A stretch of 64,000 bases of DNA from an uncultured Flavobacteriales bacterium (GCA_905181635.1 CAJIYM010000003.1:1-64000), one strand, 5' to 3'; shown: positions 1 to 19,344, numbered from the stretch's first letter. Notes: generated from the letters alone by a model not told the origin. Program-made: numbers and translations.

Positions 1-151
1 AGTAGCAGGATTACAACCTCCACCCTTTTCACTAGATTACAGCAAGCTTTAAAACTAAAATTTGTACCACTTTTTGCACCACTAACCAATCTACTAAACC
101 AAACTTAAGAAATTTATTGGATTTTCAGAGTAATCTCTTATTTTATAAAAT
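1..151. repeat. Dispersed repeat, copy 1 (direct repeat of 5755..5905)
   Basis: gtagcaggattacaacct...cttattttataaaat aligns without gaps to 5755..5905, about 10-12 mismatches by eye; may extend left of the window. Confidence 0.9.
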
Positions 152-244
152 ATTAAATCTAAATTCGGTAATCCTAAGGCCCCGCGATATTCTATTGACG
201 AACAGGAAATTCAAAAAGTAAAGTTAGAATCACTTTTATCGTAA
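152..244 (+). pseudogene. Truncated 3' end of a gene abutting repeat copy 1
   Basis: Start-less frame IKSKFGNPKAPRYSIDEQEIQKVKLESLLS* begins where repeat homology ends; looks like a protein C-terminus, family uncertain. Confidence 0.35.
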
Positions 245-290
245 AGATTACTTCTAATTTCTAAAGGATTTTACAACAAGAAATACATTG

Positions 291-1100
291 TTATATTTCA
301 ATTTTTGTTCCGATTATTTTATTTTTTTGAGTAATAATAGGTTTACCATTTAATGCTTGAACTAGAGTTGTTGTTGCTAAAATTCCGTAAAATATTGAAA
401 TAATAATTGTTGCTTTTGTACTTTTAAAAAAATAGAATGAAAGCAATGGTAGTAACTGTAAGGCATGCATACCTATAAAGTGAGAAACTCTTAAATCGCC
501 TACAGTTTTACTCCAACCTATAATCCACCAATTTGAGTTATCATTTACGGCACCAACGCTATGACTCATCTGAGAACTCATTAAACCTCCTTCAAATGAA
601 AAAACAACAAAAATTAATATCCCTAAACGAATGGACCAAACATAATAACTTGGTAAATTTGGAAAGGACTGTGTAAAAAAGAGGAACCCAATATAAGCAG
701 TATAAAGTGTAACAATGACAGCCGCTAAGCCCATTAACGAATATAATACAGAATAAAGTGGTGTATTAAAGTTAAAATGTGATAATTGTCCTTTTGATGC
801 TTGAAATGCGATATAGATAAGTTCAAAACCAAATAAAATAATAACCACCCAATTAAATGGTATTACATTAAAATTTGGCAAATAATGACAGTACCAAAGC
901 ATTGTCCAAGAAAATAATGCTATTGAAACAGAAAACTTAAAGGGTTTAAACCAAGCGTTTACTCCGTGAACTTGAATACTAGTAAATTTAGTTAAAACAA
1001 TAAATATTATTGATAGAGAGAAACAAAACAAACCGAAATAAAACAAGTATTCGTTCCGAATTTTTAACTCCTTAATAAAACTTAATATTCCTTCAAACAT
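291..1100 (-). CDS. Hypothetical multi-pass membrane protein
   Basis: ORF 291..1139 with several hydrophobic segments; start at MFEGILSF (1100) avoids overlap with the upstream gene. Confidence 0.7.
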   Translation of the reverse strand: MFEGILSFIKELKIRNEYLFYFGLFCFSLSIIFIVLTKFTSIQVHGVNAWFKPFKFSVSIALFSWTMLWYCHYLPNFNVIPFNWVVIILFGFELIYIAFQASKGQLSHFNFNTPLYSVLYSLMGLAAVIVTLYTAYIGFLFFTQSFPNLPSYYVWSIRLGILIFVVFSFEGGLMSSQMSHSVGAVNDNSNWWIIGWSKTVGDLRVSHFIGMHALQLLPLLSFYFFKSTKATIIISIFYGILATTTLVQALNGKPIITQKNKIIGTKIEI

Positions 1101-1107
1101 TAACTTA

Positions 1108-1806
1108 TTATTTTTTGTAAATCGTAAATTTTGGTACAAAGTAATTTAAGCAATAAAGCATTCCTGCGTATGTAAAAATGAGAGTAGGCATATTGGTATT
1201 AAATCCTAAATCAAAATCTGGAATACTAAATAACTCTCTAAAAGATTTTGTTGCAATCAGTAGCATGAAAATGATTCCATAAGCAAAGACAGAAATAATT
1301 GCAATTCTATTTTTTGTAGTTCTAATAATTCCTTTTTTCGTTTCTTCTGCAAAGAAATACCATAAAGCTCCAATACTAAATAAGGCTTCTATTAATATGG
1401 CTAAATAAGGATTAGAAGCATACAATCCAAGACCGGCTTCCATTGTGTCTGCCCCAAAAATGTGGTGAGTATGACCTGAAAAGAAATCTAAAACAAAATG
1501 GATTGAAACTAAAACTACACTTACTAAGCCTATTTTGGTGCTTTTGAATAGAAGTTTCCCAAGTACGAAAACAATTGCCAACCAAAATAATTGAGGTAAC
1601 AAATCGTGGCTGTACAACATATCTACTACCATATTACTTAAAGTAGCATCAAAGGCATCACTTGGACTGGTTGATTCAAGTCCTAAATAATGAAAAAGAA
1701 ACCACAAGAAATCTTGTAATTGTGATATAATTAGAAAATAAAGTAACCCACCTTTTGGGAATTTTTGTTTTGCTATTAATGCGGTTGTAAAATGTCCTGC
1801 TAACAT
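1108..1806 (-). CDS. Hypothetical membrane protein
   Basis: 232-aa ORF, multiple TM segments, GHTHHIF motif. Confidence 0.75.
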   Translation of the reverse strand: MLAGHFTTALIAKQKFPKGGLLYFLIISQLQDFLWFLFHYLGLESTSPSDAFDATLSNMVVDMLYSHDLLPQLFWLAIVFVLGKLLFKSTKIGLVSVVLVSIHFVLDFFSGHTHHIFGADTMEAGLGLYASNPYLAILIEALFSIGALWYFFAEETKKGIIRTTKNRIAIISVFAYGIIFMLLIATKSFRELFSIPDFDLGFNTNMPTLIFTYAGMLYCLNYFVPKFTIYKK

Positions 1807-1880
1807 AATTTTTGTAATATTGTTATTAATTGAAAGTAAAAATACACATTACTATCGAATTAATAGTAATAATATAAAAA

Positions 1881-2300
1881 ATGATGATGAAATTTCGTTC
1901 TGGCTGCCCAATCTCTTCTACACTTGATGTTGTAGGCGATAAATGGTCTTTGTTAATTATTAGAGATATGCTCATTAAACATAAAAAAACTTTCAAAGAA
2001 ATTTCTGATTCAGATGAAAGAATTGCTCCTAGCATCTTATCTGCTAGATTAAAATTATTAGCATCTTGTAAACTGATTTTCAAAACAAAAGCACCAAATA
2101 ACAAAAAAGAAAATATTTATTTGTTAACGGAAAAAGGGATTCGTTTAACCCCTATAATTATTGAATTTAGTCTTTGGGGGGATTCCAATATGCGAGAATT
2201 TAATCAAATAGATATCATTGACGGACTCAAGGCCGATAAATCAGTTATCATCAAAACAATACAAGATAACTATAAAAGTCTACTTGTTAAATTCAGATAG
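1881..2300 (+). CDS. HxlR-family winged-helix transcriptional regulator
   Basis: CPISSTLDVVGDKWSLLIIRDMLIKHKKTFKEI...SILSARLKLL is HxlR-like. Confidence 0.9.
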   Translation: MMMKFRSGCPISSTLDVVGDKWSLLIIRDMLIKHKKTFKEISDSDERIAPSILSARLKLLASCKLIFKTKAPNNKKENIYLLTEKGIRLTPIIIEFSLWGDSNMREFNQIDIIDGLKADKSVIIKTIQDNYKSLLVKFR

Positions 2301-2432
2301 TAGTTTTCAATGAAGCTTATTAGATTTGGACTTCATACTATTAAAAATATCTGAACTTTCTTTGATAAAGCAAATATAAATACAAAGCAAAAACTACCCT
2401 ATCTAAACTCTTCTTCTAAAACTTATTATTAA

Positions 2433-3947
2433 TTATTCAATAACTATTTTAGCATAAAGTAAACTATTATCAAGCTTAATCACTACGATATATGCTCCGT
2501 TCAACATTTGTTCAGTATTTATTTGGTGTTGTTTAGGTGTACTACTCTCATAAATAAGTTGACCCGAAAGATTAAAAACTTTAACCTTTTCAATCGTGTT
2601 TAATGGTATTATTGGATCAATAAAAAATACCCCAGAATTAGGGTTAGGATAAACTAATCCTTCGGTTAGTTGCGTCTGAAAATTATTAATTCCAATTAGG
2701 GGGCTCATGTTTAATATTACACGAACTTTATTGTCAGAACCCAAGAAGCAAATATCGTCTAATCCGTTATTGTCAAAATCTTCAAAAAGCATACCTCTAC
2801 CAGTTTCAGTGCTACAATCTGCCCCTAATGGAATCTCTTGAACCTGATGGGAATTATTTATATTGAATGGATCAAACGCAATTACAAGGGAGTCGAGATC
2901 ACTGCCATTGGATTGAACGAATACAATATCTGTATTTGAGTCTAAGTCCATATCGTGTGAGTACATAAAGCCTCCATAAAAATAATCCGATATAACATGC
3001 CTTATTTCCAGTGAAGAATTATTAGCATTAGAAGACAGATCAAATAATACAGGAGGTCCTGATGAATTGAAAACATCGAGCTTCTCGAAAGATCTATTAT
3101 ATGCTATGACATCATCAGAACCATCTTGATTTACATCCACTAATAGTTTATGGTCTCGAAGTTGGCCCAATGGATTATTCCATCCCTCTTGGTAAAATTC
3201 CATTTCAAATGATTTATTGGCATTTTGTGTGAATAAAGTAAAACCTCTATCAATAGGCATAAAAAAGTCCATTCTACCATCGCCATTCGCATCTCCATGT
3301 TTTAAATCGAGAGAATAGCCGGTTGAATTCACATCTCCATAGACGTTATGAGTAAATGAATTGTTTGTATTGTCGAATACATGTAGTAGAAGAGGAGCAT
3401 GAGACCCAGAGCATGCAGATACAATATCTAAATCGCCATCCGCATCATAATCAATAAAAATTGCTTCGTATCCATGAGTAGAGCAACTAAAAAACGTTGG
3501 AGCATCAAATGTCATGAAACCATTAGCATTTCCATCATAAAGATAAAATCCATTATCCCAGAAACTATATACTAGCATATCTACATTTCCATCTACATTA
3601 TAGTCAGCAAAATCTGAGATAGCTAATAGGTTATTTATGCCACCCGTAGCATAATTAATAGAAGTTGTACTTTGTGTAAATGTTCCATCACCATTTCCAA
3701 TAAGTATAATTGCATTTGATGCTGGATAAAATTCAAAAGATTGAGGATAGGACATTCCTCCGTCTAAAGCAAGGTCTAATATTCCATCTTCATTAAAATC
3801 ATAGGAGAAAGTATTGAGCATTCTTTCGCCAACTTCAACAGTTGTAAATGAAGTTTCAATGGGGTTGGACGCTAAGAATTGCGCAAAACTGTATTGAGAT
3901 ATAATGAGGCTTAAAAAAGTAGTTAATAATTTAAGTTTATATTTCAT
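2433..3947 (-). CDS. FG-GAP/VCBS-repeat secreted protein with canonical T9SS type A-like C-terminus
   Basis: Signal peptide; D.DGD/N.DG repeats (DYDADGDLDIV, DANGDGRMDF); C-terminal VYPNPNSGVF...LSGQLIYES...GAYIVVIKLDN. Confidence 0.85.
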   Translation of the reverse strand: MKYKLKLLTTFLSLIISQYSFAQFLASNPIETSFTTVEVGERMLNTFSYDFNEDGILDLALDGGMSYPQSFEFYPASNAIILIGNGDGTFTQSTTSINYATGGINNLLAISDFADYNVDGNVDMLVYSFWDNGFYLYDGNANGFMTFDAPTFFSCSTHGYEAIFIDYDADGDLDIVSACSGSHAPLLLHVFDNTNNSFTHNVYGDVNSTGYSLDLKHGDANGDGRMDFFMPIDRGFTLFTQNANKSFEMEFYQEGWNNPLGQLRDHKLLVDVNQDGSDDVIAYNRSFEKLDVFNSSGPPVLFDLSSNANNSSLEIRHVISDYFYGGFMYSHDMDLDSNTDIVFVQSNGSDLDSLVIAFDPFNINNSHQVQEIPLGADCSTETGRGMLFEDFDNNGLDDICFLGSDNKVRVILNMSPLIGINNFQTQLTEGLVYPNPNSGVFFIDPIIPLNTIEKVKVFNLSGQLIYESSTPKQHQINTEQMLNGAYIVVIKLDNSLLYAKIVIE

Positions 3948-4001
3948 GTTTAATGTTTAATGTTAATTTATACTTACACTTCCGAAGCAATTTATCTCGA
4001 T

Positions 4002-4046
4002 AAAAAAGTTCGAAATAAGGACCGAGAGGTCCACTCAAATTAGTGG
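4002..4046. promoter_or_regulatory. Conserved upstream element copy A plus hairpin
   Basis: aaaaaagttcgaaataaggaccgagaggtcca; GGACC-GAGA-GGTCC dyad followed by CCACT..AGTGG. Confidence 0.55.
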
Positions 4047-4060
4047 GGTATAATAAATTT

Positions 4061-5545
4061 CTAACGCACATATCTTTTAGTTATACTTCCATCTATATAA
4101 ACATCAAAGATTATTTGATTTCTTAAATTTCTATTTATCTTTTCTCCAAGAATGTTAATTGAATATGAATATACTTTATCTAAATGATTTAATTCAGAGA
4201 CACTTGTAGTTGTTGGTAATAAAACAGCATCAATAACATGTACAACTCCATTATCTGCAACTAAATCCGCAACAATAACTTGCGCGTTATCTATAAAAAC
4301 CTCACTCATAGAATTAATCGTAACTAACACATCTCCATTCAAAGTTGGCACAACAAGATTATTTGATAACATTGTAGACAATACACTGTCTCCAACAACA
4401 TGGTGCAATAAAATATCTGTTAATTGTGGTATATCAGCTAGTAAAGCAGTAACTGTACCTGCTGGCAATAAATTAAATGCAGCATCAGTTGGCGCAAATA
4501 ATGTAAATGGCCCAGCACCTGATAAAGTTCCATCTAATGCACAAGCATCAATTGCAACCTTTAATGTAGTATGATTTGGTGAATTTGATACAATATCATA
4601 AATTGAATTTGGAGGCGCTGGTAATAAAACAGCATCAATAACGTGTACAACTCCATTATCTGCTAGTATGTCAGCACCTGTTACTTCAGCAATAGTTCCG
4701 TTCCCAGATTCAATAAAAACGCTTGCACCAGATATTGTTACTGTAATATCGCCATTCAAAGTTGGCACAACAAGGTTATTTGATAAAATTGTAGACAATA
4801 CACTGTCTCCAACAACATGGTGCAATAAAATATCTGTTAATTGTGGTATATCAGCTAGTAAGGCAGTTATTGTTGCTTGTCCTAATAAATTAAAGGCCGC
4901 ATCAGTTGGCGCAAATAATGTAAATGGTCCAGCACCTGATAAAGCACCATCTAAAGAACATGCATCAATTGCAACCTTCAATGTAGTATGGACTGTAGAA
5001 TTTGATACTATGTCATATACAGAGTTTGGAGGTAAAATACCAATATCACCAGCATCAATAGGTCCACCATTATCTTCAAATGCAAATCCCATTATAATTA
5101 TTTCAACTCCAGGCACAACATCAATCATTATCCAAGCATAATTGTTATTAGCTGTTTTAACACCAACATAATGAATTCCTGCTGGTTCCTGACCCGGCTG
5201 CATTGGTCCGTAACCAGTTGCACCATCAATATTCAAAAAATTGCTTCCATTAATTGGATCATTAAATTGATACAACTTTAGTTCATCAGAATATGTTCCC
5301 GCAGGAGTAACTGTAAAAATATTTCCTGTTGGACTATTAAAATTTTGAGCGTTAATGCCAGCGAAATCAGAATATGTAAAGTCTATATCTGTAGCATCAA
5401 CAGTTAATGTAATTGGAGTAGGAAATCCTCCTCCTGTAGAATATGCAACTGTTGCGTTTACATTTGGAACATGTACAATTGATGCGAAAATTAGGTTAGA
5501 AATTGTCAGCATGCAAAACACAAGTGTAAGTTTAATTTTTTTCAT
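4061..5545 (-). CDS. Secreted protein with two tandem fasciclin (FAS1) domains
   Basis: Two copies of HTTLKVAIDAC..GPFTLFAPTDAAFNLL...DNGVVHVIDAVLLP; diverged C-terminal tail ILGEKINRNLRNQIIFDVYIDGSITKRYVR. Confidence 0.9.
   Translation of the reverse strand: MKKIKLTLVFCMLTISNLIFASIVHVPNVNATVAYSTGGGFPTPITLTVDATDIDFTYSDFAGINAQNFNSPTGNIFTVTPAGTYSDELKLYQFNDPINGSNFLNIDGATGYGPMQPGQEPAGIHYVGVKTANNNYAWIMIDVVPGVEIIIMGFAFEDNGGPIDAGDIGILPPNSVYDIVSNSTVHTTLKVAIDACSLDGALSGAGPFTLFAPTDAAFNLLGQATITALLADIPQLTDILLHHVVGDSVLSTILSNNLVVPTLNGDITVTISGASVFIESGNGTIAEVTGADILADNGVVHVIDAVLLPAPPNSIYDIVSNSPNHTTLKVAIDACALDGTLSGAGPFTLFAPTDAAFNLLPAGTVTALLADIPQLTDILLHHVVGDSVLSTMLSNNLVVPTLNGDVLVTINSMSEVFIDNAQVIVADLVADNGVVHVIDAVLLPTTTSVSELNHLDKVYSYSINILGEKINRNLRNQIIFDVYIDGSITKRYVR
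4211..5030 (-). repeat. Tandem ~408-bp intragenic duplication (two FAS1 repeats)
   Basis: ggtaataaaacagcatcaataac(a/g)tgtacaactccattatctgc at 4211 and again at ~4619. Confidence 0.85.
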
Positions 5546-5677
5546 AATTTGATTTAATAATTTGATTTTTTTAACAGTGCAAATATAGAAAAATTACTAC
5601 TGTTTTGATAGTAAAAATTACATTATAATGTATAATGTTGATTTATACTTACACTTCCAAAGCAATTTATATCAATC

Positions 5678-5740
5678 AAAAAGTTCGAAATTAGGACCGA
5701 GAGGCCCATCAAAAAAAATCCACTTATATGAGTGGGATTT
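5678..5740. promoter_or_regulatory. Conserved upstream element copy B plus hairpin
   Basis: aaaaagttcgaaattaggaccgagaggcccatca then tccacttatatgagtggga hairpin; shares ~85 bp with copy A. Confidence 0.55.
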
Positions 5741-5754
5741 ATTTACTATGTCGT

Positions 5755-5905
5755 GGTAGCAGGATTACAACCTCTACCCTTTACACTAGATTACAGTAAG
5801 CTTTAAAACTAAAATTTGCACCACTTTTTGCACCGCTAACCAATCTACTAAAACAAACTTAAGAAATTTATTCGATTATCTGAGTAATCTCTTATTTTAT
5901 AAAAT
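5755..5905. repeat. Dispersed repeat, copy 2
   Basis: Direct repeat of 1..151. Confidence 0.9.
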
Positions 5906-5909
5906 AATA

Positions 5910-6446
5910 TTATTTTATAACTATTCTTTTTTCTACTGTTCCATCATCATAGGTGTAAAAGAGAACTTTATTCTTAGTGCCTTTTGTTTCTCTTCCTAAA
6001 AGGTCTGTTACTTTTAGAAGTTCTTTGTTTGTAGTATGTTCTTCAATTCCAACAGAATTAACAACACTAAAAGAAATTATATCATTATCATCAGGCACAA
6101 TGCCAGCTGTACAAGGTGGTTCGCCACCTCCAGAAGACAAAGTTAAATCGAAAAGATAAGTTCCAGCTAATAGTGGATTTAACTTAAAAGTATCAGTAGT
6201 ATTACAAATCGCAGCTGCAATTCCTATGCAATGTTGTGTCGAAGCTAATATATTATTACCTACAATATTGAATGACTTAAAATCTAAAGGACAGCCAGAA
6301 GAAGTAAATAAAAGTTCAGCATAAATATAAACTGTATCAGTATTATTTGGATTTGCAGGTGCAACAATCAAAGAAGAAATAGAACCTAGCATTTGTGTAA
6401 ACCCAATCATTGGGAAAAAAAGTAATATAAGTAGTAGTTTTTTGAT
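5910..6446 (-). pseudogene. Secreted protein with variant C-terminal tail; start codon apparently ATC
   Basis: In-frame IKKLLLILLFFPMIGFTQ matches paralogue signal peptide MKKLLLILLYLPMIGFGQ; tail VTDLLGRETKGTKNKVLFYTYDDGTVEKRIVIK. Confidence 0.6.
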
Positions 6447-6509
6447 TGATAATCGTTTTAGCTAAACTGCCTTTTAATACAGTTTAGGTTTTGTTAGCTT
6501 TACGTTATA

Positions 6510-6965
6510 TTATTTTTTAATGTTCATTTCATAAACAGATATCCATTTTTTCGCACTAATTTTTTTCATTAATTGTCCAATGAGTTTATAGGGAATTTGG
6601 TCCAATTTTTTGAAGCGGATACAACTTTTTCCCATATCTAATTTTTGCTTGCTATGCTTAGGATATTCTGACACGAACCATTCCAAAAGTTTTGGATCTG
6701 AATAGATACCCATGTGGTAAAAATTAATTGAATTCTTTTGTGAAGCAATTCCAGCAAACGGCAATGGTTCTATTGGCTTGCAATGGTATCCTGCAGGATA
6801 AACTGAATGAGGTATAACGTAACCCAAACCGCCGTAACTAATGGCTGCTTCAAAATCTTTAGGCAAGTTTTGCATAATGACATCATGCAAATTATTAAAT
6901 GGTTCTATCCTTTCCTCAGAAAGGCTGGTTAAAATATCTTGTACTGTTTTTCCTATTGCTTTCAT
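6510..6965 (-). CDS. DUF1801 domain protein (YdhG/YobT-like)
   Basis: ISYGGLGYVIP...PLPFAGIASQKNSINFYHMG...GKSCIRFKKLDQIP. Confidence 0.75.
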   Translation of the reverse strand: MKAIGKTVQDILTSLSEERIEPFNNLHDVIMQNLPKDFEAAISYGGLGYVIPHSVYPAGYHCKPIEPLPFAGIASQKNSINFYHMGIYSDPKLLEWFVSEYPKHSKQKLDMGKSCIRFKKLDQIPYKLIGQLMKKISAKKWISVYEMNIKK

Positions 6966-7002
6966 TTTTTTGAATTTCCTTTTGCCTGGTACTTAATAAT
7001 GA

Positions 7003-7077
7003 CTGCTAACCAATATACTAAATCAAATTTAATAAATGGATTTGATTACCTGAGTAAACCGAAATTTTATAAAATAA
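7003..7077. repeat. Dispersed repeat, partial diverged copy 3
   Basis: gactgctaaccaatatactaaatcaaatttaataaatgga..ttacctgagtaa..attttataaaat matches the 3' half of copies 1 and 2. Confidence 0.7.
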
Positions 7078-8223
7078 TTATTCTATAACAAACTTTTTCT
7101 CAATCGAGCCGTCTTCATAAATAAAGAATAAAGTTTGATTACTATTTATTGATGTTTCTCTTCCTAAGAGATTAACTACTTTAACTAGTTTTTTATCAAA
7201 TGAGCCTATCTCTCCTATAGAAGTCACACTACCCATCCTTGCCCAAAGGCCTGAATTTGCATCCCATATCCAGGTCACACAACATGTAGAATATCCAATA
7301 GCATCTGCATAAGTAATACAAACATTAATAGTGTCATACGGCTGACCATTATTCATGTTATTAAAAATCTGATGTGAATTCGACATACTATCTACACCTA
7401 AAACTGTACCATCTGGAGCAGTAGTAATCCAAGAAGCAATAATGGTATTAATATTCAGTACTTGAGCCATTAAAATTGTTTGGGGTGAACCACCTGTACT
7501 AAAAAGAGTCATGGAATCACAAAGATTAGATACTGTGCTAACACAAACAGCCTGACAAGCAGCTAAAGATGTGTATTGTCCCAAACCAGTTCCAGGATCA
7601 TAACATCCAAGCAAATTTGGACTACAATCCCAAGAAGAAGGGGGTGGCATAACATTACAAGAATCAGCTATACACGCTGCAATGGTTGAGTATACTGACA
7701 TTATATTTGTTTGTCCCATAGTATAAACTCCAGGGCCTACACATGTAGTAATTCCAGGAGCAACTCCTCCCATACAAGCAAAACTATCGGTAACATTACC
7801 ACAATTAGATTGACAAGCAGCTAAAGATGTGTATTGTCCGAGACCAGTTCCAGGATCATAACATCCAAGCATATTTGGATTACAATCCCAAGAAGCAACA
7901 GCATTTCCTGGAATTGACCAACTATTTCCATTCCAAAAATAAATAATACAACATACAGTATTCATTGTATAAAGACAAGTGGTAATTGTATCGTAAGGTG
8001 CACCAGAAGGTGAGATATTGTATACACTATGCATATTCCATGAGCTATCCTGCCCTAATATTGTTCCATCTGGAGCAGTTGTTTCCCAAAAATCAATAAT
8101 TCCTACAGATGTGAGTGTTAATTGATATTGTGAGCCAGAAACAGTTAATGAATCACAAGGTGATTGTGCCTGAACAAATAAAAGAGTAAATGATGTTAGT
8201 GTTAATAATAATAACTTTTTCAT
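7078..8223 (-). CDS. Cys-rich multidomain secreted protein with variant C-terminal tail
   Basis: Signal peptide; repeated SWDC.PN.LGCYDPGTGLGQYTSLAACQ..C; tail VVNLLGRETSINSNQTLFFIYEDGSIEKKFVIE. Confidence 0.8.
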   Translation of the reverse strand: MKKLLLLTLTSFTLLFVQAQSPCDSLTVSGSQYQLTLTSVGIIDFWETTAPDGTILGQDSSWNMHSVYNISPSGAPYDTITTCLYTMNTVCCIIYFWNGNSWSIPGNAVASWDCNPNMLGCYDPGTGLGQYTSLAACQSNCGNVTDSFACMGGVAPGITTCVGPGVYTMGQTNIMSVYSTIAACIADSCNVMPPPSSWDCSPNLLGCYDPGTGLGQYTSLAACQAVCVSTVSNLCDSMTLFSTGGSPQTILMAQVLNINTIIASWITTAPDGTVLGVDSMSNSHQIFNNMNNGQPYDTINVCITYADAIGYSTCCVTWIWDANSGLWARMGSVTSIGEIGSFDKKLVKVVNLLGRETSINSNQTLFFIYEDGSIEKKFVIE

Positions 8224-8404
8224 AATTTTACGGTTTATATTAATATTAGATATTTTTTAGTTATCAAATCGCTTTATACTTCAAAAATATATAATTTCTT
8301 GCAACTTATAACATCTTTTTGAATTACATCTTACCTATTCAAGAAACTCATGCCAATGCTTATATATAGCAATAGTCTTACATATCCAAAGTAATATGCC
8401 TATG

Positions 8405-8437
8405 AAAAAAGTTCGAACTTAGGACTGTGAGACCCAC
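8405..8437. promoter_or_regulatory. Conserved upstream element copy C
   Basis: aaaaaagttcgaacttaggactgtgagaccca; contains AAGTTCGAACTT palindrome. Confidence 0.5.
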
Positions 8438-8450
8438 AACCATTAAGCTA

Positions 8451-8487
8451 AAACCCCTGTTTATCAATAATTTACAAGGTTTTTTTT
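8451..8487. terminator. Putative terminator hairpin
   Basis: aaacccctgtttatcaataatttacaaggttttttt, imperfect stem. Confidence 0.4.
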
Positions 8488-8564
8488 ATGTTGTCGAAGT
8501 TGTTGTCGGTTTAGAGCGAATACATAGCTTTATTCCTCTTCTTTCTTGGCAAATAGATTTATAT

Positions 8565-8807
8565 TTATATCAATAGCTCTCTTTCCTCAATCTCTTCATA
8601 AACTTTTACCTTTCCAATTGAATAAGGAAGTAGTTTTGAGATTGCATTGAAGTACTCTGTTGGAGAGTCTATCTTATCTAGCATCTCCATTATCTTGTTT
8701 CCATCAATTGCTTGGTTTATATGTTCTCTTATGAGCTTAGAAGTAGTGCTTACTGAACCTTTAGTTCTACCTATAAGGTTTCCGCTTGTTCCTTTCTTAA
8801 ATGGCAT
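8565..8807 (-). CDS. Small protein with DUF5681-like (phage/mobile-associated) N-terminus
   Basis: PFKKGTSGNLIGRTKGS resembles KKGxSGNPxGRPKG. Confidence 0.55.
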   Translation of the reverse strand: MPFKKGTSGNLIGRTKGSVSTTSKLIREHINQAIDGNKIMEMLDKIDSPTEYFNAISKLLPYSIGKVKVYEEIEERELLI

Positions 8808-8828
8808 ATTTTTTTACGTTAGAATAAC

Positions 8829-9260
8829 TTAACACCCACCTTCAAGCATAGGTATTATTGTACCATCTTTTTCATAGCTTATGTATTTAACGGATTTTCC
8901 ATTTTCATCATAAGTTATTTCGGTATTGAGTTCCCCACTATCATAATATCGTTTCCATATTCCAGTTCTTTCACTACATACTCCTTCTTCAGTGTATTTG
9001 TAAAAACCTTCTTCTTTTATTCTTCCGTATTTAGTGTAAGATGTAAATTCCCCTTCCATTTTCCCATTCTTATAATTCGCTTCTGTTTTTATTGCCCAAG
9101 CTCCCCAATCATAAAAATATTTTGTAGTCCCATCTCTTTTCCCTTCTATATTGTAGTGTACTTCTGATAGAATTGCACCACTATTATAATAAGCTCGTTT
9201 TACTTCTTGCCCAAACCCAATCATAGGCAAGTAAAGTAATATAAGTAGTAGTTTTTTCAT
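8829..9260 (-). CDS. YwqK-type MORN-like repeat protein
   Basis: YYNSGAILSEVHYN.EGKRDGTTKYFYDWG..KTEANYKNGKMEGEFTSYTKYG. Confidence 0.75.
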   Translation of the reverse strand: MKKLLLILLYLPMIGFGQEVKRAYYNSGAILSEVHYNIEGKRDGTTKYFYDWGAWAIKTEANYKNGKMEGEFTSYTKYGRIKEEGFYKYTEEGVCSERTGIWKRYYDSGELNTEITYDENGKSVKYISYEKDGTIIPMLEGGC

Positions 9261-9308
9261 CTTAGTTGTTTGTTAATCTATTGTTTTAGAGTCTGTAAAC
9301 TTAATTAT

Positions 9309-9998
9309 TTATTCTATAACTATTCTTTTCTCTACTGTTCCATCATCATAAATGTATAAGAGTGGTTGATTTTTTTGTTTTGTTTCTCTTCCTAATAGAT
9401 CAGTTACTTTAAGAATTTTTTTGTTTATAACGTAATCTTGTATTGAAGATGGGGTAGACTCATTGACAGTTAAGTTAGTTGAATGATAGATATCCCCTGA
9501 ATTAGTCTGGTCCAGATTACCTTCCATAAATGCCCCAAAGAAAGTAATGGATCCTGTACCACTATTTGGTGCCTCCCAATCCATCGACCAATTTTTTATA
9601 CCAGGACCTTGTGTTCCACCTAATTTATGAGTAACAGCTTTATTGTTGTTAGTTAATTTTGTTTCAGTATTATTTGTTATAAAAAAAGTTCCTTTTTTTG
9701 CAGATCCAAAATTTGCTTCTTCAGACGTTATCTCAAAGCCATACTGATCATTGCTACCTTGTATACTTGCAGTAATTGTGTATACTTGGTTTGGAACATA
9801 TCCACTTGGTGGAATATTAGAAGTAATTGTAGCTCCTGCCCCTAAACCTGCATAGTGGCATTGAGTACAGCTTACACCATCAGTTGGAGATCCTGTTTTC
9901 CCTCCTACAGATCCTGTAGAATTAGAATTAGAAGTTGTTGGGTAAAAGAATATCGCTAAAGCAATAGCAAATGGGATAATAAAAAGTGATTTTTTCAT
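9309..9998 (-). CDS. Choice-of-anchor V-type (reeler-like) secreted protein with variant tail
   Basis: GSPTDGVSCTQCHYAGLGAGATITSNIPPSGYVPNQVYTITASI; tail VTDLLGRETKQKNQPLLYIYDDGTVEKRIVIE. Confidence 0.8.
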   Translation of the reverse strand: MKKSLFIIPFAIALAIFFYPTTSNSNSTGSVGGKTGSPTDGVSCTQCHYAGLGAGATITSNIPPSGYVPNQVYTITASIQGSNDQYGFEITSEEANFGSAKKGTFFITNNTETKLTNNNKAVTHKLGGTQGPGIKNWSMDWEAPNSGTGSITFFGAFMEGNLDQTNSGDIYHSTNLTVNESTPSSIQDYVINKKILKVTDLLGRETKQKNQPLLYIYDDGTVEKRIVIE

Positions 9999-10025
9999 AT
10001 CGTAAACATACTAAATAAATTCTTG

Positions 10026-10060
10026 AAAAAAGTTCGAAACTGGGACCGTAAGGCCCACCA
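10026..10060. promoter_or_regulatory. Conserved upstream element copy D
   Basis: aaaaaagttcgaaactgggaccgtaaggcccacca, 28 bp upstream of the 9998 start. Confidence 0.55.
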
Positions 10061-10064
10061 AAAA

Positions 10065-10091
10065 GAAACCCACTCATTTGAGTGGGTTTTT
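10065..10091. terminator. Bidirectional terminator hairpin
   Basis: gaaacccactcatttgagtgggttttt directly after the stop of 10094..11326. Confidence 0.75.
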
Positions 10092-10093
10092 AT

Positions 10094-11326
10094 TTATTCA
10101 AGAATCATTTTCTTCTCCACTGTTCCATCATCATAGATGTAAAAGAGAGGTTGATCAGTTTGTTTTGTTTCTCTGCCTAATATATCAATAGTATTAATAA
10201 GACGCCTATTATAATTATCTATTTGAATCATATTGGTTGATACTAAACTAATTGGCTGTTGTTGTGTTACACAATGCACCATACCACCCTCATAGTACAT
10301 ATTACTACAATCAATACCTACAACAGTTTTGCTTGGGTATAAATTTTGAATAATGCTTAATGCAATAGAATCATTTGGATCATTATAGATAGGAACTAAA
10401 ACAGCATCATTTGCTACATTATAATTCACATAACTACCCTTAAAGTTAACATTACCTCCCCAAGAAGTTGTAATATTATTTTGAGTTAATGGCAATGTTA
10501 TAAAAGAATAAGGACTACCATATACATCTGTAGCAGAGTTTAATATCGAAATATCCTGAGTAGATAGCCCCCAATAAATTAAATCAGAATTACTCATAGT
10601 AACTATAGTATTCATGTTTACAAATTTTACAAAACTATCAATATGCATATCTGTAATATCTAATGACCCTCCAAATGCGCCATCTAGCCAAATGAAATTA
10701 GTAACACCTAAATAAGAAGTTAAATAATTCTCAATCTGCATTTCTGTTAGATATGGATTTCTATCTGCTCCTGTTATTGAGCTTCTAGTCATTATCGCAC
10801 TACCATTTCCATCAACCTCAACAGATCCACCCTCTAAAACAAAGCCATCAAGATCCACATATGGAAGATTTAAATCATTAGCGATTAAAGTTGGAATTTG
10901 GTTGTCTAATGCGTAAGGAGCGTCTCCTCCCCAACCATTAAATCCAAAATCAAGAATAATTAAATTATTATTATTGTCGTAAACAAAAATAGGCCCATTA
11001 TCTCTAGTCCAGTAATCATCATTTGGATGAATGTAAAAATCAACATTTGTTAATGGTACTGATGCAGCACTTAAAACTTGTTGAACATGAATTTGTTCAT
11101 TTGTATCGTAAACTATAATATGTACATTTTCTCCTGTTTCCAATGCTGCAACCATTTCAATAAAAGCAGGCTCATTATCTTCTTGATGCCAAGGAGGATA
11201 AGTAAAGTTATGTGGCCATTGCAACCATGTTCCTTCATGCTGATCTTCCTCAGAAGGCATAGTATATTGAATTTGCGCAAAATTTAGAAGAGGTAAAAAA
11301 ATAAATAGAAACAATAGTTTTTTCAT
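10094..11326 (-). CDS. Secreted agmatine deiminase/peptidylarginine deiminase-family protein with variant tail
   Basis: MPSEEDQHEGTWLQWPH, WTRDNGPIFV, DITDMHIDSFVKF, EGGMVHCVTQQQP; signal peptide; tail DILGRETKQTDQPLFYIYDDGTVEKKMILE. Confidence 0.9.
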   Translation of the reverse strand: MKKLLFLFIFLPLLNFAQIQYTMPSEEDQHEGTWLQWPHNFTYPPWHQEDNEPAFIEMVAALETGENVHIIVYDTNEQIHVQQVLSAASVPLTNVDFYIHPNDDYWTRDNGPIFVYDNNNNLIILDFGFNGWGGDAPYALDNQIPTLIANDLNLPYVDLDGFVLEGGSVEVDGNGSAIMTRSSITGADRNPYLTEMQIENYLTSYLGVTNFIWLDGAFGGSLDITDMHIDSFVKFVNMNTIVTMSNSDLIYWGLSTQDISILNSATDVYGSPYSFITLPLTQNNITTSWGGNVNFKGSYVNYNVANDAVLVPIYNDPNDSIALSIIQNLYPSKTVVGIDCSNMYYEGGMVHCVTQQQPISLVSTNMIQIDNYNRRLINTIDILGRETKQTDQPLFYIYDDGTVEKKMILE

Positions 11327-11352: not shown

Positions 11353-11387
11353 AAAAAAGTTCAAAATTAGGACCGAGAGGCCCTCCA
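11353..11387. promoter_or_regulatory. Conserved upstream element copy E
   Basis: aaaaaagttcaaaattaggaccgagaggccctcca, 27 bp upstream of the 11326 start. Confidence 0.5.
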
Positions 11388-11390
11388 AAT

Positions 11391-11423
11391 CAGAATCCAT
11401 CTCATTATGAGTTAAGATTCTGC
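11391..11423. terminator. Putative terminator hairpin
   Basis: cagaatc...gattctg stem followed by tttttatt. Confidence 0.5.
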
Positions 11424-16893: not shown

Positions 16894-16894
16894 A

Positions 16895-17015
16895 GTGGTA
16901 TCATGATTCCAATCCATACTATTTAACTAGATTATAGCAAGATTAAGAACTAAAAATTATTTAATTAAAAGATTATTAAGTTTGATTATTTTTTCTTAGT
17001 AATATCTTATTCTTA
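16895..17015. repeat. Dispersed repeat, decayed copy 4
   Basis: gtggtatcatgattccaatcc...aactagattatagcaag...ttagtaatatcttattctta parallels 5754..5905 with gaps. Confidence 0.5.
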
Positions 17016-17050: not shown

Positions 17051-17083
17051 AAAAAATAGCATACATATTACTGACTGCTATTT
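17051..17083. terminator. Terminator hairpin downstream of CotH gene
   Basis: aaatagca...tgctattt stem at the gene end. Confidence 0.5.
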
Positions 17084-18545
17084 ATTCAATAATAATCCTT
17101 TTTTCTACTTTTCCGGGATAATATATATAGAATAATGGAGCATTTTTAACCACTTTTGTTTTCCTACCCAAAACATCAATAATATATGCTAGTTGCGGAT
17201 TAAAGGTTATATATTCACTAGAATTACAGGAGGGAATATTATCATCCATCCAAATTAACCTGTCTGATATCCAGCTTTTCAAGAAATATATTTCATCTTG
17301 ATAAGTGTTTCCAATATAATAATTTGGCCAAATATAACTTCCTAATATATCCCATCTTTGAAAGTTTCTTTGCTGAGCATTATCCAAATAAAGAGCAAGA
17401 CTATCAATAAAGTTAAATATTGAGTCTTGATGCAAACTTCTTTCACGCAAATATTGCCATCGACATTTTAGTGAGTTTTGATATAACGTGTCATCTAACA
17501 ATCTTTCAAACCAAAATGGAACCTCTGCTAAATCAAAACATCCCCCATCTTGCTGCCATCCTCTTACATTCCACCCATCGCAGTAAAAAGCATTACCAAA
17601 AGCTAGATTATAATCCCATAAAGGGCCCATGGTTAACTTCCCTCCCTTACTATCCTTATCTTTATACATATATGTACTTAGCCTATAGCCATCAATATTT
17701 CTAGAAAGTTCATTAATTATATACAAATCTATAAAAGAAAAAATATCAATATATTTCGAGTAACCGCTAGAGTAATTTGCAAAATTAGTGCTGTTTAATG
17801 CATATTCGAAATCATGCATAAAGTTTTCAATATAACTCCTTTGTTCATTTGACATCACATCTGCTTCTGGATAATGGTATTGTATGCGAAGCCGATCTCC
17901 TGCAATAGTATTGTAGTTTGAAAACCAATAACCACCGCCTGTTCCAGTATATTTATCTAACTTTATAATATAACCTCCTGTTAAACTATCACCAGCAATA
18001 TCATCATAGTCAAGTTTTGCAATATCTACTCTTTTTTTATCTCTTTTAATCTTTTCCATTAAAATATAAACTCCTCTATAATCACCATTTACAACAAGCT
18101 CACAAAACTTAGTTCTTGGTGAATATCTACCCATTTTATTTCCTAAATAAAAAGTTAAAACATTTCTCATTAATGACTTGTCACTATATGGAGCATATAA
18201 AATCCAATCATTTTCAACTGACATTCCCAAAAGAGAAACATTATTGTTATTTCCTAAAATATCCTGCGTTTCTAAAGCATATGCCTTTTTTGGAAAGGAT
18301 TGTGAGGAACTACCTCTATATTCTATACTAATCTTACCATTATATCCTGTAAAAGGACCATTTACAGAGTTAATATTTCCAAATCCATTGTCAATTATTC
18401 GCATATCACAGATTATTCTAGGATCATCTTGTATTGACTGACCATTAGTGCTAATTAAAACTATAGGAAGTTCAGAAGTAGAAAATTGACTAAATGCTAT
18501 AAATGAAAATAATGAAAATAATGAAAATAGAAGTATCTTCCTCAT
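17082..18545 (-). CDS. CotH kinase-family secreted protein with variant tail
   Basis: IEYRGSSSQSFPKKAYALET, MEKIKRDKKRVDIAKLD, MGPLWDYNLAFGNA; tail IIDVLGRKTKVVKNAPLFYIYYPGKVEKRIIIE. Confidence 0.9.
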   Translation of the reverse strand: MRKILLFSLFSLFSFIAFSQFSTSELPIVLISTNGQSIQDDPRIICDMRIIDNGFGNINSVNGPFTGYNGKISIEYRGSSSQSFPKKAYALETQDILGNNNNVSLLGMSVENDWILYAPYSDKSLMRNVLTFYLGNKMGRYSPRTKFCELVVNGDYRGVYILMEKIKRDKKRVDIAKLDYDDIAGDSLTGGYIIKLDKYTGTGGGYWFSNYNTIAGDRLRIQYHYPEADVMSNEQRSYIENFMHDFEYALNSTNFANYSSGYSKYIDIFSFIDLYIINELSRNIDGYRLSTYMYKDKDSKGGKLTMGPLWDYNLAFGNAFYCDGWNVRGWQQDGGCFDLAEVPFWFERLLDDTLYQNSLKCRWQYLRERSLHQDSIFNFIDSLALYLDNAQQRNFQRWDILGSYIWPNYYIGNTYQDEIYFLKSWISDRLIWMDDNIPSCNSSEYITFNPQLAYIIDVLGRKTKVVKNAPLFYIYYPGKVEKRIIIE

Positions 18546-18636: not shown

Positions 18637-19344
18637 TTAATTAAACGGATTAGTAGCCCAAATATTAAGCTCATTTATAAAACCTCTATCTTCCATCTCA
18701 ATTACAGATATTATCGAGTGAGATATTTCCTTTGTAGTTAACTTGTTATCAACATTTTCTCTTTCTACTCTTTTTGGGTTTCCAAAAGCAGTTGTAACTT
18801 CACTAGGGTTGACTTGGCAAACTCTAATATTGTGAGGTCTTAATTCTGCTTGCCAACATTGAGTCAAGCATCTAACAGCAAATTTTGAAGATGAATAAAT
18901 ACTTCCGTTCTTATATCCTTTTAAACTAGCTGTAGATCCAATATTAACTATAGTTCCAAAAGATTTTTTAATCATGAGCGGAACAATCTCTTTGGTAAAT
19001 AATGCAAGTCCAAAAACATTTACATTAAATACCTTTAAGAAATCTTCAATATTTAATTCGTTAATAGAATTTTTAACACCAATACCAGCATTATTTATTA
19101 GAACATCTATCCTGCCACCTAAAATATCTATACATTTCTCTGCATTCTCTGATATATTTTTATGATCAGAAATATCAAATTCAATAATCTTTGATTTAGT
19201 ATAAATTCTAGCCTCTTTCAATCTATTTTGTAATCTTCCAGTAATCAAAACATTCGCTCCTTTATCTACTAAAACTTTTGCTGTTTCCTTACCAATTCCA
19301 AGACTGCCTCCAGTTATTAAAATATTTTTTCCTTTTACATTCAT
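18637..19344 (-). CDS. SDR-family oxidoreductase
   Basis: NILITGGSLGIGKETA, NNAGIG, YSSSKFA. Confidence 0.95.
   Translation of the reverse strand: MNVKGKNILITGGSLGIGKETAKVLVDKGANVLITGRLQNRLKEARIYTKSKIIEFDISDHKNISENAEKCIDILGGRIDVLINNAGIGVKNSINELNIEDFLKVFNVNVFGLALFTKEIVPLMIKKSFGTIVNIGSTASLKGYKNGSIYSSSKFAVRCLTQCWQAELRPHNIRVCQVNPSEVTTAFGNPKRVERENVDNKLTTKEISHSIISVIEMEDRGFINELNIWATNPFN

Follow-up and report, generated by a model that had tools for sequence, protein, structure and literature searches.

What is a repeat of about 150 bp doing between the genes at the start of a flavobacterial contig? We addressed this question in a stretch of 64,000 nucleotides from an uncultured Flavobacteriales bacterium (GCA_905181635.1, CAJIYM010000003.1:1-64000), the whole of which is called the window here. 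The window comprises the first part of contig C3 (C3:1-64000) in a metagenome-assembled genome (MAG) of 1.09 Mb that is 70% complete (G, C and L numbers denote genomes, contigs and loci; the source genome is G000). A preliminary description of this DNA reported two repeat copies that bracket a 5.75-kb block and two decayed copies further right. Our analysis indicates that the repeat is very probably an attachment (att) site used by gene cassettes for integration at the 3' end of tRNA-Pro(UGG). The window is, in all likelihood, a portion of a cassette array, partly decayed, in an assembly without the tRNA-Pro head.

All four reported copies were recovered. Copy 1 (2-151) and copy 2 (5755-5905) give a gap-free alignment of 150 bp with 94% identity. 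The partial copy, placed before at 7003..7077, was matched at 7002-7078 and is 82% identical to copy 2. The decayed copy near 16895 was found at 16894-16958 with the repeat-family profile. Copy 1 sits at the very start of contig C3, and its core is truncated by the contig end. The copies and their parts are as follows.

1..151, minus strand: att repeat copy 1, 3' end cut by the contig end (alignment)
1-18, minus strand: tRNA-Pro-like core of copy 1, with an arm-like pair GTACC/GCACC at 64-80
5755..5905, minus strand: att repeat copy 2, the reference copy (full profile match 5748-5874)
5750..5772, minus strand: tRNA-Pro(TGG) 3'-end core GGTTGTAATCCTGCTACCACGAC (the tRNA itself: GGTTCGAATCCTGCTACCCCGAC)
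5818..5834, minus strand: paired arm-like site GGTGC-N7-GGTGC; in relatives, the same pair lies behind tRNA-Pro and ahead of the type-A integrase
7002..7078, minus strand: att repeat copy 3, reduced to its 5' half, without core (alignment)
16894..17015, minus strand: att repeat copy 4, decayed, core GGATTGGAATCATGATACCACTTT (profile match 16894-16958)

The anatomy of the site was derived from a gene-strand alignment of 56 copies. A full copy consists of a conserved body of ~110-130 bp, which contains the paired GGTGC sites, and the last ~23 nt of tRNA-Pro. The body is strongly conserved (...TTAGCGGTGCAAAAAGTGGTGCAAATTTTAGTTTTAAAGCTTGCTGTAATC...). The repeat ends with GGTTGTAATCCTGCTACCCCGAC, the 3' end of tRNA-Pro(UGG), and TTTTTT comes next. 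The tRNA-Pro(TGG) gene of G026 ends in GCAGGTTCGAATCCTGCTACCCCGACTTTTTT; after it come a gene encoding the C-terminal tail described below, a repeat, another gene and another repeat. Because this gene end matches the repeat end, the repeat core is identified as the tRNA-Pro 3' end with an altered T-loop. The hairpin GTAG-AGG-TTGTAAT-CCT-CTAC, previously likened to a tRNA T-arm, is indeed the T-arm and 3' end of tRNA-Pro(TGG). CG is the T-loop dinucleotide of all 16 tRNA genes (16/16) but of no repeat (0/96); 82 of the 96 repeats have GT. Since the tRNA keeps CG with a cassette inserted behind it, the crossover should lie 3' of this dinucleotide. In a cassette pair shared by G000 and G024, the left homology begins at TACCCCGAC, in agreement with this position.

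The GCACC-N7-GCACC pair, also pointed out before, was confirmed, and no part of the repeat body is more conserved. Its gene-strand form, with T or A allowed (GGWGC-N7-GGWGC), occurs 88 times in 1.07 Mb of fetched sequence, 79 times in repeats. Four of the other nine pairs are located exactly between tRNA-Pro and a type-A integrase, and five are elsewhere. Rfam gave no match at the repeats, and only weak sub-threshold matches around 10.0-10.1 kb.

A search of the whole genome and its relatives, as proposed in the preliminary description, covered a sample of 398 genomes of the order, 52 in the family and 346 others. These are one genome per species and mostly draft MAGs, and their contigs often end at repeats. 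The source genome contains at least 11 copies, including at least nine further ones. Most of the latter lie on one strand at C1:9.7-22 kb, where they form a single cluster and separate successive genes. The repeat is present in 33/52 family genomes. Outside the family, three of 346 genomes matched at E<=1e-10 (G089, G106 and G140); six more matches were short and at chance level. All named records with the core motif are uncultured Flavobacteriales-type MAGs, and neither repeat nor core motif was matched in phage, plasmid and viral-contig collections.

The window was described as lacking an integrase. Consistent with this, none is found among the open reading frames (ORFs) of its part at 1-20 kb, and the single PF00589 match in the assembly is on contig C5. 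A search for a cognate tyrosine recombinase found one in relatives, together with the tRNA that heads the arrays. There the order is tRNA-Ser, tRNA-Pro, an integrase with paired sites in its left end, cargo, a repeat, and then strings of gene plus repeat. In several genomes, a tyrosine integrase of ~397-400 aa on the same strand follows tRNA-Pro, and the repeats come after it. Synteny is not conserved throughout the relatives. Conserved ABC-transporter genes and tRNA-Ser lie to the left of tRNA-Pro on the locus maps, and this flank is conserved across the genomes compared. The right flank varies, as does cassette content. Some genomes have an integrase element there, G026 and G036 have a cassette that lacks an integrase, and G034 and G033 have unrelated genes.

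Type-A integrases, such as that at L096:3702-4895, share 64-95% identity and contain Arm-DNA-bind_5, SAM_5 and Phage_integrase domains. The GGTGC-N7-GGTGC pair between tRNA-Pro and the type-A gene is identical in sequence and spacing to that of the repeat. Arm pairs lie to either side of the core: on the left in four exact and two degenerate type-A ends, and on the right in the repeat. The integrase elements end in a repeat, and their cargo includes a cytosine methyltransferase (G025) and a type I restriction system (G016). All eight genomes with a type-A integrase (>=70% identity) also carry the repeat. Integrase relatives on viral contigs are only 28-30% identical.

Some integrases at this tRNA are of a second type (B), which seems to be paired with a different conserved att body of ~110 bp. 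A hybrid att site in the source genome (C1, L011:10859-11025) joins the 5' part of the 151-bp repeat to the type-B body. The 348-aa PF00589 recombinase on C5 was considered as the cognate enzyme and rejected: it is patchily distributed, contains stops in G024, is broken in G008 and is not near arrays. This protein (L015:1435-2481) is 95% identical to the stop-containing copy in G024, a different genus, and 91% identical to the broken copy in G008.

The arrays were characterized with 126 good copies from 25 genomes, an ORF threshold of >150 aa and neighbors <8 kb apart. Neighboring copies are co-oriented in all 56 pairs, and no copy (0/126) lies inside an ORF. The 56 intervals between copies are gene-sized; 28 contain one ORF and 17 contain two. 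The view of a single bracketed 5.75-kb block gives way to one of integron-like strings of cassettes. Their cargo includes tail-bearing surface-type proteins such as leucine-rich-repeat proteins, a phosphodiesterase/sulfatase-like protein, UPF0114, a UmuC-type polymerase, a short-chain dehydrogenase and a 'YASFPV' protein of ~100-180 aa that recurs. A promoter-like motif is present just inside the left end at about one in three cassette starts. TAnnTTTG is found <=100 bp from 41/116 starts, compared with 5/116 on the other strand and 8.9% of random windows.

The YASFPV family is named after a signal peptide ending in ..YASFPV.. and often spans the membrane. It occurs 21 times in the fetched loci, in several genera, and many members are in cassettes (for example L011:11060-11560, L040:7743-8126 and L095:8650-8997). 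The one member tested has no Pfam match.

Strings of gene plus repeat on the same strand, with gene-sized spacing and cargo that is mostly hypothetical or exported, are also what a chromosomal integron would produce, through recombination of folded single-stranded attC sites by IntI. We consider this very improbable. The integrases score 53.2 and 45.2 bits on TIGR02249, against a cut-off of 265, and ~31 on PRK15417, against 435. The repeat folds no better than shuffled sequences on either strand (DNA z -0.51 and -0.17; RNA z -0.99). The core is a tRNA-Pro end, and cassettes lie behind tRNA-Pro. An identity with integrons and attC is largely refuted by the IntI score far under the cut-off and the absent fold.

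The preliminary description placed copies 2-4 directly 3' of genes encoding a variant C-terminal tail. In the window this holds (5910-6410, 7078-8223 and 17082-18545), but it is not a general rule. A same-strand gene lies just upstream of 84/126 good copies, and the tail is present in 14/84 only; most cassettes do not contain tail-bearing genes. The repeat could otherwise have been a non-mobile dispersed element, such as a conserved 3' untranslated region, a terminator or a repeat like a miniature inverted-repeat transposable element, that rides with duplicated tail-bearing genes. Copies are indeed intergenic and usually 3' of a gene, and those first noticed are behind tail-bearing genes. Yet the rarity of the tail argues against such an element, as do the unrelated genes before and after copies, in both orientations. 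It also leaves unexplained the tRNA-Pro end, the place behind tRNA-Pro and the arm pairs of the integrase elements, and we find it barely credible. Of the two suggestions made earlier, attachment sites of a tyrosine recombinase, with a tRNA-like core and arm sites, are favored, whereas an element dispersed with the genes is not, as the site defines the cassette ends.

Comparison between genera revealed transfer of cassettes. The phosphodiesterase cassette of the source genome (C1:11690-12813) is 94.8% identical over 1124 bp to that of G024, and the UPF0114 cassettes of G007 and G024 are 94.5% identical over 849 bp. For a control, an M28-peptidase-like gene, identity is 76.1% (G000-G024) and 75.0% (G007-G024). 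The homology of shared cassettes stops at or close to the repeat boundaries. Variation in cassette content is seen between species and genera.

The tRNA end is also found away from tRNA-Pro. It lies behind a peptidase-like gene in G034, G024, G012 and G005, with a changed T-loop in G012 and G005, and perhaps in degenerate form in G064. In G020, G016 and others, nothing of it follows this gene, which represents the uninserted form. G034 has the bare ~24-nt core without cargo, and then the ancestral convergent gene. Behind the core of G024 lies an integrase element. Comparable bare cores lie behind several other genes. At L230 (G034), L213, L225 and L227, the bare tRNA-Pro 3' end is directly behind the stop codon of the peptidase-like gene. 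A nitrilase locus was rejected as an empty site, its gene order being too variable.

Several observations weigh against an att site with an active integrase. Some ectopic cores start at GGTTCGAATCC; such a start is not accounted for if the crossover is 3' of the T-loop. In the sole shared cassette checked base by base, the right boundary fades within the repeat and is not sharp. No excision junction, circle or strain-level presence/absence was found among the genomes used, which are of different species and mostly draft MAGs. Near-complete genomes with the repeat, some in many copies, have no type-A integrase (G034, 97%; G013, 99%; G036, 98%), and the arrays there may therefore be relics or use another enzyme. 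These genomes, the decayed and truncated copies, window included, and the hybrid of two att types would suit a relic system, in which sites of att origin are now shuffled by RecA recombination between the ~150-bp repeats. We regard this as unlikely. Cassettes are found at sites where the core on the left is <=~24 nt, or ~9 nt (G024:C22), too short for RecA; integrases with arm pairs are intact in several genomes, and ~94.5% cassette identity across genera implies recent movement.

Integration at tRNA-Pro thus remains our preferred explanation. The anatomy of the site, its linkage to tRNA and integrase, the cassette boundaries and the transfer between genera are read from sequence comparisons. 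From these we infer that the arm pairs are bound, that recombination occurs in trans, that circles are intermediates and that the system is currently active. The integrase, a tyrosine recombinase with Arm-DNA-bind and SAM_5 domains, would bind the arm pairs and recombine core with core. A circular cassette would insert behind tRNA-Pro or another repeat and restore the tRNA 3' end. The commonest cassette has a single gene and lacks an integrase; its movement would be in trans. Breakpoints of cassette gain and loss would be expected in ATCCTGCTACCCCGAC.

The window genes next to the repeats are listed below.

152..5746: block of five ORFs that separates copies 1 and 2; multi-gene, exceeding the usual one- or two-gene cassette
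291-1139, 1108-1806, 2433-3947 and 4061-5545, minus strand: ORFs of the block
1881-2300, plus strand: ORF of the block, HxlR-like
5910..6410, minus strand: gene with the variant C-terminal tail, directly upstream of copy 2
7078..8223, minus strand: tail-bearing gene upstream of partial copy 3
17082..18545, minus strand: tail-bearing CotH-domain gene, upstream of decayed copy 4
18637..19344, minus strand: short-chain dehydrogenase gene

Two of these genes have close relatives in G008. The gene at 5910..6410 has a 91%-identical copy ~700 bp from the nearest repeat, in another context. The dehydrogenase has an 85.6%-identical relative (L038) that forms a single-gene cassette between two repeats. 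Proteins encoded at 5910-11326 and 17082-18545 share the C-terminal tail LLGRETK..LFYIYDDGTVEKRIVIE, which is not recognized by curated sorting-domain models of the type IX secretion system. The only TIGR04183 match among the window proteins tested is 2433-3947. The tail-bearing genes are alike in DNA at their starts (signal peptide) and ends (tail), and their middles are unrelated.

A second repeated element, AAAAAGTTCGAAATTAGGACCGAGAGGCCC, is found at 4003-4046, 5678-5721, 8406-8449, 10027-10070 and 11354-11397. On the gene strand it is a GGNCC-TCTC-GGNCC hairpin, usually behind a CCCACT..AGTGGG terminator, and possibly forms a double terminator. It recurs between tail-bearing genes in the window and at the right end of the contig.

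How does this system relate to known ones? Integrons, and the attC clusters without integrase known as CALINs, likewise consist mostly of single-gene cassettes, each with a recombination site, and their integrase is often not nearby. The arrays here are co-oriented with a site per cassette. In contrast to integrons, they have no IntI and no attC-type fold, the integrase is of another family, tRNA-Pro takes the place of attI, and many cassettes carry their own promoter motif. Integron-finding programs would not be expected to detect the system because it uses neither IntI nor attC. Somewhat short of an even chance, in our estimate, is that it is an integron analogue of independent origin in Bacteroidota. 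A tRNA-targeting integrase of phage type or of the type found in integrative and conjugative elements would drive, in trans, a family-wide shared pool of cassettes, mostly of one or two genes, with double-stranded att sites. Cassettes would dock at tRNA-Pro, and the bare ~24-nt tRNA ends behind other genes would be extra docks. If so, marine Flavobacteriales, uncultured and with genomes of 1-2 Mb, possess their own integron-like system of gene capture. Its signature, paired GGTGC and a tRNA-Pro end, would list a mobile pool of surface-associated, DNA-repair, metabolic and small membrane proteins. It would also offer a testable path for single genes, not islands, between genera of ocean bacteria.

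Bacteroidetes integrases of the CTnDOT/IntDOT type have arm-binding, SAM-like and catalytic domains as well. In the integrases here a TGLSY motif stands in place of the first catalytic arginine, as in IntDOT. IntDOT-type enzymes tolerate mismatches in the crossover region, which would fit the variable T-loop dinucleotide. Here, unlike in CTnDOT, the target is a tRNA 3' end, and no conjugation genes were noted in the integrase-element maps.

Tycheposons, elements of 4-200 kb with a tRNA at the border and a tyrosine recombinase (described in PMC10872708), are similarly marine and tRNA-linked and transport cargo. The integrase-bearing units here (~5 to tens of kb) fit this outline as given there. 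The strings of one- or two-gene units do not, since a tycheposon is one large cargo element. Tandem integrative and mobilizable elements such as SGI1 (PMC2297512) also use a site-specific integrase, integrate in tandem at one site and have a secondary chromosomal site; in the present system the cognate integrase goes with arm sites that match to the left and right of the core. SGI1-type elements are multi-gene with their own integrase, whereas most units here have one or two genes and none.

Additive flexible genomic islands at tRNA genes, described in Alteromonas (PMC4119200), Ca. Methylopumilus (PMC10872708) and Ca. Actinomarinales (PMC7771536), share the tRNA target, stacked cassettes marked by repeats of the tRNA 3' end, and reported transfer between genera. 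The arrays here likewise have a tRNA gene at one end and its 3'-end repeats at the cassette boundaries. In the parts of these papers available, however, cassettes are operon- to island-sized (330 bp-42 kb in Methylopumilus, PMC10872708), and the repeat described is the tRNA end alone, of 20-52 nt. Here the repeat has, in addition, a body of >100 bp that contains paired arm sites and is conserved across genera, and cassettes of one gene are the commonest. We found this arrangement described nowhere in the open-access literature searched; as evidence of novelty this is weak. The system is a distinct variant of additive islands and tandem elements, with single-gene cassettes, an extended conserved att site and a family-wide scale.

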